Shown piece by piece: positions 14,071 to 27,165 of a stretch of DNA of 64,000 nucleotides (the first letter of the stretch is position 1; each line of letters opens with the position of its first letter). The DNA is from Phycisphaerae bacterium (GTDB taxonomy: Bacteria; Planctomycetota; Phycisphaerae; UBA1845; Fen-1342): contig JAJVHV010000045.1 of assembly GCA_022072445.1 (NCBI GenBank), forward strand, positions 18,598 to 82,597. The letters are read 5' to 3'. The position numbers and the translations under genes are program-made. The notes under the pieces were generated by a model that did no database searches, was not told the origin of the DNA, and worked only from the letters and a program-made list of their open reading frames with translations.

Positions 14071-14094
14071 GCCCCCAGGTAGTGTCCTAATTTG
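14071..14094 (+). repeat. Left terminal inverted repeat plus target duplication
   Basis: The target duplication GCCCCCA (14071-14077) is followed by the 17-bp inverted repeat starting at 14078. The transposase-remnant stop codon (TAG read on the minus strand) lies inside the repeat, as is common in compact insertion sequences. Confidence 0.85.
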
Positions 14095-14361
14095 GCAGTA
14101 GGTCCGCAACGGTCCACAACCCCGCCGACACGCCCGCCATCATCGCCGGGGTCATGCCTAGGCTACGGTGCAGCCGCACGAAGTTGTACCACCGCGCATC
14201 GTGCGGTCCATGATCGTTTCGCAGTGCGCCCCGACGCGGACCATGAGCCGCATGATCGTGTCGCGGTGAACCCCCGTGATTCGCTCGACGGACCGGATAG
14301 ACGAAGCCTCGCAGAGCATGGAGATTACGGCGATCTGCTTCTCGCGCTTCAGGACGTTCAC
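14087..14361 (-). pseudogene. IS1-like transposase remnant, catalytic core deleted
   Basis: The N-terminal part (about 55 residues, from a GTG at 14361) contains MNVLKREKQIAVISML and SIRSVERITGVHRDTIMRL. These resemble the helix-turn-helix start of IS1-family transposases. After about MDRTM the sequence jumps to a transposase C-terminus in another frame: WYNFVRLHRSLGMTPAMMAG followed by LWTVADLL. The middle catalytic region (roughly 150-200 residues in relatives) is missing and the join is out of frame. No active transposase can be made. Family assignment is by recognition of both ends, not by search. Confidence 0.8.
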
Positions 14362-14746
14362 GGTCGCACCCTTGATCTGGGCGCGACGAGCCGTACAATT
14401 CGGTTACTGACCCGTGCGGCTACGTCGCGCGGTTCAAGTCCCGCGTGCGGTTGCACCCGCACACGGGACGCTTTCTAAAACCGGGTCGCCTCGCCGACGG
14501 TGGGTTACAGGCCACGCCCGCGACTCGCGTTATCGCCCGGCTGATCGGCGACCGCATTCCTCAGCCGGGCTTAATTCTCTCCTCACGGCAGACTCCTTTC
14601 CGCCAAGGTTTATACCGGGTATTATGCCGCACTATTGGATTTCAGTCAATATCACAGCAGAGGAAATCTCAGAAAAAATATCCAATAGCGAGTTGACAGG
14701 TTCTGGAACATCGTCGATACTGTATCGTGAAAGGACGGTGTTAATC
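14362..14746. other. Element interior without a supported gene
   Basis: This 385-bp stretch separates the transposase remnant from the passenger gene. A T-arm-like GGTTCAAGTCC occurs at 14431-14441, but no cloverleaf surrounds it. Composition turns A+T-rich from about 14570, leading into the passenger promoter. No coding region is supported. Confidence 0.6.
14693..14722 (+). promoter_or_regulatory. Candidate promoter of the passenger gene
   Basis: A perfect TTGACA (14693-14698) is followed after 18 bp by GATACT (14717-14722). An AAAGGAC ribosome-binding site lies at 14730-14736 and the ATG at 14747. This places a complete expression signal inside the element. Confidence 0.55.
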
Positions 14747-15544
14747 ATGGCGAACGCCGCACCGACGAAGCCAGAACCGGAACAGGAGCGAAAGCGCCAC
14801 CGCAGTCCGAACTACCCGATTGTCGCGATCGGAACGGCTATCGAGCGGGCGACCAAGCTCTACGAGACAAACAAGTCGCATCCGACCCCGTTGGCCGTGG
14901 CCTGCAAGTTGTGGGAGTACAAGGTCGGCAGCAGCGTAGCAGACCAGAATATCGCCGCGCTGCGAGCCTACGGCCTAGTCACTGTCACGGGCCAGGGCGA
15001 CAAGCGGCTGATTGCCGTTTCCGATGATGCCCGCCGGATCATCCTGAACGCGCCTGAACGGGCGAAGATCGTCAAGCGGCTGGCGTTGAATCCGGCTATC
15101 TACAAAGAGCTGTGGGGTCAGTACGGGGCGTCGATGCCGAACGACGAAACGATCAAGCACTACCTGCTTTTTCGTGAGGCTGGGGCCTTCAACGACGACG
15201 TTGTTGATATGGTTATTGACCGGTTCAAGCAGACAATTCAGTTTGCAAAGCTGACAGAATCTGATATAATCGAGGAGAAGGAGACGGACGCCGAACCCCC
15301 GACTCACGGCAATTTTGCCGTTCGCCCGTCGGAACAGCCGAAGTTAGAGCGTCCGAAGCCACCTATGGCAGGCACGAATCAGGACGTGTTCACGCTGCAA
15401 GAAGGGCCGGTTGTGCTTCAATGGCCTGCGACTCTGACGCCAGCGGGTTACGAAGACCTGAAGGATTGGTTCGAGTTGGTCCTGCGCAAGATCAAGCGCT
15501 CCATCGCGCAGCGCGAGTCGCAGGATTCGTCGCCGGCAGAGTGA
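14747..15544 (+). CDS. Passenger protein of the IS1-like element, function unknown
   Basis: This 265-residue soluble protein has three parts: a charged N-terminus (KPEPEQERKRHRSP), a helical core at residues 20-165, and a proline-rich linker before a short C-terminal domain at about residues 205-255. The core (LAVACKLWEYKVGSSVADQN, then LRAYGLVTVTGQGDKRLIAV) reads like a winged helix, a fold seen in uncharacterised DUF5343-like proteins; this is a structural guess. It has its own promoter and ribosome-binding site, and more A/T codons than neighbouring genes, consistent with transfer. It ends 37 bp before the right inverted repeat. No transposase motif is seen. Confidence 0.75.
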   Translation: MANAAPTKPEPEQERKRHRSPNYPIVAIGTAIERATKLYETNKSHPTPLAVACKLWEYKVGSSVADQNIAALRAYGLVTVTGQGDKRLIAVSDDARRIILNAPERAKIVKRLALNPAIYKELWGQYGASMPNDETIKHYLLFREAGAFNDDVVDMVIDRFKQTIQFAKLTESDIIEEKETDAEPPTHGNFAVRPSEQPKLERPKPPMAGTNQDVFTLQEGPVVLQWPATLTPAGYEDLKDWFELVLRKIKRSIAQRESQDSSPAE

Positions 15545-15580
15545 GACACAATCCCCAACCGCCCGCATGTGCAAGCGGTT

Positions 15581-15604
15581 CAAATTAGGACACTACCGCC
15601 CCCA
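15581..15604 (-). repeat. Right terminal inverted repeat plus target duplication
   Basis: Positions 15581-15597 are the exact reverse complement of 14078-14094, and GCCCCCA follows at 15598-15604. Further right, to about 15730, lies a pyrimidine-rich word repeat (CCCCTTGTTCC type) mirroring the AAGGGG words left of the element at 14041-14066. Confidence 0.85.
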
Positions 15605-15758
15605 GTGATCAGCTCACCGAAAGGCGACCACGCGCTGAGGAGCGACGTGCGGGGCCCTGTCTCTCTCCCCTTGTTGTTCCTTTGTTTTCTTGTCCCCTTG
15701 TTCCCGTGTCCCTCGGCCCCTCGGCCACATGTTTCATCGCCGCCCGCGGCCGGCGTGC

Positions 15759-27047: not shown

Positions 27048-27067
27048 CCGCAAGCAGGAGCGAATTT

Positions 27068-27143
27068 CGAATAGCGAATAACGAATGACGGCGTCGCCCA
27101 CGACACCGTCGTTCGTTATGCTTAACTCGTTATTCGCTATTCG
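27068..27143. repeat. 16-bp inverted repeat of GAATAGCGAATAACG words
   Basis: CGAATAGCGAATAACG (27068-27083) is repeated exactly inverted at 27128-27143. Further ATTCGCTATTC words continue to 27203. Related words occur at 30345-30357, 30427-30439 and 41819-41834. The patch is conspicuously A+T-rich in this GC-rich window. Confidence 0.75.
27078..27119. terminator. Long imperfect hairpin after the lysyl-oxidase-like gene
   Basis: ATAACGAATGACGGCGTCG and CGACACCGTCGTTCGTTAT form 19-bp arms around a CCCA loop, with one mismatch and one G-U pair in RNA. It lies 30 bp after the stop and could end transcripts. It is nested in the larger inverted repeat at 27068-27143. Confidence 0.45.
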
Positions 27144-27165
27144 AGCCCGCCCGCGACGGCGGCTG

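Follow-up and report, generated by a model that had tools for sequence, protein, structure and literature searches.

Both the IS1 family and the IS1595 family are known to include transporter insertion sequences (tIS; Siguier et al. 2009, as cited in PMC8496243, PMC3129680, and PMC11891212; also PMC9330008 and PMC7986276), and PMC11891212 names transcription regulators and methyltransferases among their passengers. Mobile insertion cassettes (MIC) are also known, for example, MIC231 of IS231 (PMC6542083, PMC3129680). Toxin-antitoxin genes are carried in Tn3-family transposons, beside the resolution site (PMC7157771), and Tn7-like transposons carry exchangeable cargo in which genes for defence and for toxin-antitoxin systems are enriched (PMC8649781).

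Here, we present an analysis of a locus in a 64,000-nucleotide stretch of a Phycisphaerae bacterium genome (the window). We consider it quite probable that this locus is a 1520-bp IS1-type element that has lost the middle of its transposase, needs a related transposase from elsewhere, and carries a passenger gene that is likely interchangeable cargo of the defence or addiction type. Compared with the systems above, relatives of the element resemble tIS in combining IS-type ends, a transposase, and passenger genes unrelated to transposition within one end pair; they differ in that toxin-antitoxin- and defence-like genes are abundant in their cargo and in that none of 36 is a bare IS (in a sample in which bare copies are under-represented), while the window copy has a transposase remnant only and, thus, no working transposase. 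The window element itself resembles MIC, which have ends and a passenger without a working transposase and presumably depend on a related transposase for their movement; however, its ends are of the IS1 type, whereas those of MIC231 are of IS231, and movement in trans is something that we infer here. The Tn3-family transposons share with these elements the carriage of toxin-antitoxin genes, but here no resolvase was recognised and the cargo varies between elements. Similarly, exchangeable cargo rich in defence and toxin-antitoxin genes is shared with Tn7-like transposons; however, Tn7 has a multi-gene transposition machinery, while the elements described here have one transposase gene and span 2-5 kb. 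Finally, members of the IS1 family are ~0.77 kb long, with two frames joined by a frameshift, and generate a direct target repeat of ~8-9 bp. The window element is 1520 bp and the relatives are 2037-4779 bp, mostly with a one-frame transposase, and in size and frame they depart from that family.

The element extends from position 14078 to 15597 of the window and is bounded by perfect 17-bp inverted ends, of which the left, GGTAGTGTCCTAATTTG, lies at 14078-14094 on the plus strand, and the right, at 15581-15597 on the minus strand, is the exact reverse complement of the left. A 7-bp direct repeat, GCCCCCA, abuts both boundaries (14071-14077 and 15598-15604), compared with a target repeat of 8 bp in 35 of the 36 relatives. 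Both the inverted ends and the direct repeat had been described in a previous sequence-only reading of this locus and are present at the exact boundaries. Within the window, there is no other exact 17-bp inverted pair with arms 0.3-5 kb apart. A separate exact inverted pair of 18 bp, with arms within 78 bp, is present at 27067-27145 in A+T-richer DNA and is unrelated to the ends of the element. Based on their translations, the neighbours of the element are the gene for ribosomal protein L28 on one side and succinate dehydrogenase genes on the other; the identity of the succinate dehydrogenase flavoprotein was confirmed by a search of relatives. Among the best 120 relatives listed in that search, every named protein with an organism name came from Planctomycetes or Phycisphaerae, which makes a planctomycete host very probable.

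Using a profile of two intact relatives, we found the transposase on the minus strand in two pieces that occupy different frames. Profile residues 245-276 of 281, the C-terminal part, match at 14096-14191 (E 1.4e-6), and residues 3-59, the N-terminal part, match at 14191-14358 (E 1.5e-14). Residues 60-244 are missing and, with them, the DDE catalytic residues, in line with the suggestion in the sequence-only reading that the core of the transposase is deleted out of frame. The IS1 model itself matches the N-terminal remnant weakly (20.7 bits, E 3e-4). In the rest of the window genome, no further match to the relatives' transposase profile was found at E up to 1, and the NCBIfam IS1 model had no match in this genome. 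Because the middle of the transposase is missing, its pieces are in different frames, and the genome holds no other match, the window copy should, judged by its sequence, be unable to move by itself.

The passenger gene is an intact open frame on the plus strand at 14747-15544 encoding a protein of 265 amino acids, and its GC content is 58.9% compared with 67.5% in the 2-kb flanks; the description of an intact, A+T-richer gene is, thus, borne out. A putative promoter of its own, as had also been proposed, lies upstream at 14693-14721 on the plus strand (TTGACA-17-GATACT, a 10/12 match to the consensus); a scan of the region found five promoter-like sites versus 0.6 expected. The protein had no match in Pfam, NCBIfam, or PADLOC (the last at E up to 1). 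Its predicted model agrees with the winged-helix fold that had been guessed, although no fold match is firm: over residues ~17-177, the candidate folds are a FokI-type recognition domain and a BrxA-like winged helix, with match scores like those of unrelated models, and Foldseek searches of PDB and BFVD with the model gave nothing under E 1e-3. Based on the model, the passenger is predicted to be a winged-helix DNA-binding protein, perhaps with a function in defence or addiction.

It could be argued that the locus is a decayed plain IS1-like copy beside an unrelated host gene, with a second end that arose by chance or is a solo end, and that there is no gene-carrying unit. Single ends are indeed frequent, most loci with the exact 17-mer have one end only, solo ends occur in a genome of the same family as the window genome (G408), and single ends matching a 15-mer with one mismatch are no commoner than in the backwards control. 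However, 17 of 17 bases of the two ends are complementary, the direct repeat sits at the exact boundaries, the GC content of the passenger is far below that of the flanks, and the same passenger family occurs within three other delimited elements (see below). We consider this explanation very improbable. The proposal that the element moved recently was not confirmed. Only one copy of the element was found in its genome, the assembly of which is 96.7% complete. When the empty site was sought in 25 relatives with an sdhC match, from a sample without a genome of the same genus, L28 was not found within the ~1.5 kb beside sdhC.

To what extent do intact relatives of the element exist? A transposase profile search gave matches in 20 of 392 genomes of a phylum sample (E up to 1e-20) and in 40 of 387 genomes of a class sample (E up to 1e-30), from which 19 of 26 and 30 of 48 matching loci, respectively, were fetched. 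Around 51 transposase anchors, inverted ends starting with GGT and a direct repeat were sought. This delimited 34 elements, including that of the window, with a score of at least 23, compared with a maximum of 21 in a control in which the right arm was reversed but not complemented; three elements score exactly 23, near this maximum. Nine plasmid records have a relative, five were examined, and three gave elements, i.e., in Acidiphilium multivorum (2634 bp), Hoeflea (4224 bp), and Mesorhizobium loti (3370 bp). Altogether, 36 transposase-bearing relatives were delimited, 33 in genomes of the same phylum and three on alphaproteobacterial plasmids. Excluded from this count were L104, with a score of 21 equal to the control maximum; L105, in which one end starts with GGC (score 22); five end pairs without a target repeat (L049, L054, L107, L108, and L227); and two loci with 7 of 8 repeat bases (L065 and L235). 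Single 15-mer ends with one mismatch were rejected as evidence, as 19 of 392 genomes contained 29 such places in all, compared with more than 30 for the backwards control.

The 36 relatives have a median length of ~2.9 kb, and the GC content is below that of the flanks in 33 of them. An exact 8-bp target repeat is present in 35 (7 bp in L051); with few exceptions, the search required at least 7 bp. Their ends are GGTAGTG-like, and TG is present at positions 6-7 in 74 of 74 ends, the two of the window included, which was not a requirement of the search. No bare IS is present among the 36, with the qualification that 17 of the 51 anchors were undelimited, several of them near contig edges, and could hide bare transposases, and that search profiles from cargo-bearing members, together with scoring on ends plus repeat, under-sample bare and decayed copies. 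The transposase is in one frame in most relatives, and D67, D137, and E203 are invariant in 13 of their transposases. All 13 match the NCBIfam transpos_IS1 model (best 7.8e-29; one of them scores 53.5 bits, where the cut-off is 100) and, more weakly, the IS6 model; PF03400 is above its cut-off of 24.1 bits in both transposases tested (26.6 and 28.4 bits), and the NCBI annotation is IS1 family transposase for four of the five plasmid relatives examined. Judged by these matches, the relatives' transposases are homologous to the IS1 transposase; the window remnant matches only weakly. Relatives with a full-length transposase, which the sequence-only reading had proposed to look for, were found, with like ends and 8-bp repeats. 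Together with the anatomy of the locus, they support its interpretation of the element as IS1-like, non-autonomous, and loaded with a passenger gene.

At positions 3615-9950 of L100, two different elements of 2037 and 4275 bp lie head to tail and share three copies of the 8-bp sequence tgtaatgg, as if one element had inserted exactly at the target repeat of the other. In a genome of the window's family, two facing ends lie 41 bp apart (L196 4909-4955; G408:C446:11915-11955); this pair is a candidate for a minimal relic or a solo-end pair.

Transposase-less units were found elsewhere. The exact 17-mer of the window occurs in 52 stretches of a viral collection, whose contigs may be viral or host, versus two for the reversed pattern. 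Units with an exact 8-9-bp repeat and with no transposase match, or a remnant only, are L204 (2140 bp, with a methylase-like gene), L205 (1670 bp, with a PIN-like protein, a partner, and a ribbon-helix-helix-like [RHH-like] protein, as read from the translations), L209 (789 bp, with a transposase remnant), L215 (773 bp), L220 (220 bp), L233 (a 654-bp unit within one of 1086 bp at 1329-2414, each with its own exact 8-bp repeat), L244 (790 bp), and L252 (1135 bp). Another transposase-less unit, of 1159 bp, is present in genome G378 (L048). Based on their sequences, these units would most simply be explained by movement in trans; alternatively, the gene could have been lost after insertion.

What do the relatives carry? 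The cargo has matches to the PIN, PemK, HicA, SocA/Panacea, and HTH-ImmA families, and two HTH-ImmA proteins match PADLOC PD-Lambda-2_B at 7e-36 and 4e-43. An AAA protein has its best PADLOC match in HEC-04 (5e-48). Other cargo matches are to N6 methylase, DUF3800 (PDC-M04A), NYN, P63C, SDH and Clp proteases, and Bro-N, and many cargo open reading frames (ORFs) match nothing. Among 82 passenger ORFs from 33 elements, five match the RmrA model and three match PD-Lambda-2_B, while among 82 flank ORFs, drawn at random from 152, two match mad2 and one PDC-M51B, and the Pfam families listed are largely housekeeping; these ORFs were picked by length without a gene finder, and some are spurious. The family counts of 162 for cargo versus two for flanks overstate the contrast, as a single AAA protein accounts for matches to 153 families (E up to 0.01). 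PADLOC type I specificity and PDC-S13 models match one cargo ORF each, and an 831-residue protein encoded at 5847-8342 of L166, between IS1-type ends, has a match to N6-methylase and a weak one to TaqI-type specificity.

L099 and L101 align over 850 bp of the transposase (75.8% identity) and 137 bp near the other end, and L180 and L183 over 851 bp of the transposase (73.3%) and 158 bp near the other end; neither pair has a further aligned stretch of at least 120 bp. Judged from these alignments, the two pairs show cargo exchange on related chassis. Some small genes recur. Of 47 elements searched by tblastn, 24 have a KGG-type gene, to which the motif adds L099 and L106, and 10 have an RHH-like gene. 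The KGG-type gene was not found in the window element, L015, L095, or L096. It has the motif GGxKGGxARA...AARW and often lies near the end opposite the transposase; loci with it include L166, L171, L174, L175, L177, L178, L180-L182, and L200. One such gene on a Mesorhizobium plasmid is annotated as histone H1, and two that were tested had no Pfam match. A gene for a 100-residue protein is present in six of 47 elements (L050, L051, L095, L218, L244, and L253), directly after or near the transposase.

Homologues of the window passenger were found at 12 other loci, comprising eight genomes, three loci from a scan with a small alignment, and one plasmid. At three of these, they lie inside delimited elements with an intact transposase, i.e., L015 from a Pirellulales MAG (3183 bp), L095 (3486 bp), and L096 (2643 bp); a link between the passenger protein and ends of this kind, which the sequence-only reading had proposed to search for, was found. 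The ends of L095 and L096 came from the later ends-plus-target-repeat search; exact inverted words in the short flanks of passenger homologues had given none. In L017, from an alphaproteobacterial MAG, the homologue is adjoined by a transposase fragment, and the other eight loci have no such transposase alongside, at least two of these eight being near contig ends. The plasmid homologue, in Tistrella, has 27% identity, and convincing ends were not found there. The contig scan gave no locus with the passenger alone as query and three with the small alignment, and no passenger was found on phages. On contig L227 of the viral collection, ends of this kind, which no matching repeat flanks, enclose a methylase-like gene, a transposase, and a remnant of the passenger; on another contig of that collection, L197 (2715-2921) has a 68-residue frame that resembles only the C-terminal domain of the passenger. 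Because homologues sit inside three intact elements, the sequences indicate that the passenger is a recurrent cargo.

We considered that the passenger could instead be an accessory transposition factor, e.g., a regulator binding the promoter or ends of the element and kept for helping it. Its predicted winged-helix DNA binding fits this idea, as do its occurrence together with an intact transposase within three of the delimited elements, which group in a part of the transposase tree that has loose support, and the layout common to the window, L015, and L096, in which the transposase reads to the left end and the passenger, away from it, to the right. On that tree, presence of the passenger in its three rows requires 3 changes, compared with 2.9 in shuffles, and the branches are weak. 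However, 33 of the 36 relatives lack a homologue (by tblastn or ORF lists; by annotation for the three plasmid elements), homologues also occur without such a transposase alongside, and the recurrent KGG-type, RHH-like, and 100-residue genes are better accessory candidates, making an accessory role unlikely. Because those 33 relatives do without it, we prefer the reading of the passenger as cargo, likely interchangeable and of the defence or addiction type.

Under the cargo reading, and by analogy to the IS1 family, the relatives' DDE transposase would cut at the GGTAGTG ends, and the whole unit between them would be inserted with an 8-bp stagger, its contents carried along. The window copy would have arisen by internal deletion of such a unit, either before its last jump, which would then have occurred in trans, or afterward, and it would stay in place as long as no related transposase enters the cell. 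The passenger would bind DNA and be of use less in transposition itself than to the host or in maintaining the element.

The element probably belongs to a family of small shuttles that carry toxin-antitoxin- and phage-defence-like genes. A broader reading, which we put forward tentatively as possible but a little short of probable, is that this IS1-type clade no longer consists of bare IS but of a chassis, with the transposase at one end and often a small KGG-type or RHH-like gene, and a swappable slot for toxin-antitoxin or anti-phage genes. It would occur in planctomycetes and Alphaproteobacteria and shed transposase-less cassettes, and the passenger would belong to an uncharacterised defence or addiction family riding on it. 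In the literature searched, which covered few subscription journals, we found no account of such a cargo range, chassis, or passenger family; within that literature, tIS and MIC are known as kinds. If the chassis picture is true, immunity and addiction genes travel on very small transposons, the boundaries of which are readable to the base, and reading between such ends would be a simple route to new genes for defence and toxin-antitoxin systems in phyla that are poorly known. The passenger family, which is without family annotation and occurs in three further elements, would be a first candidate.
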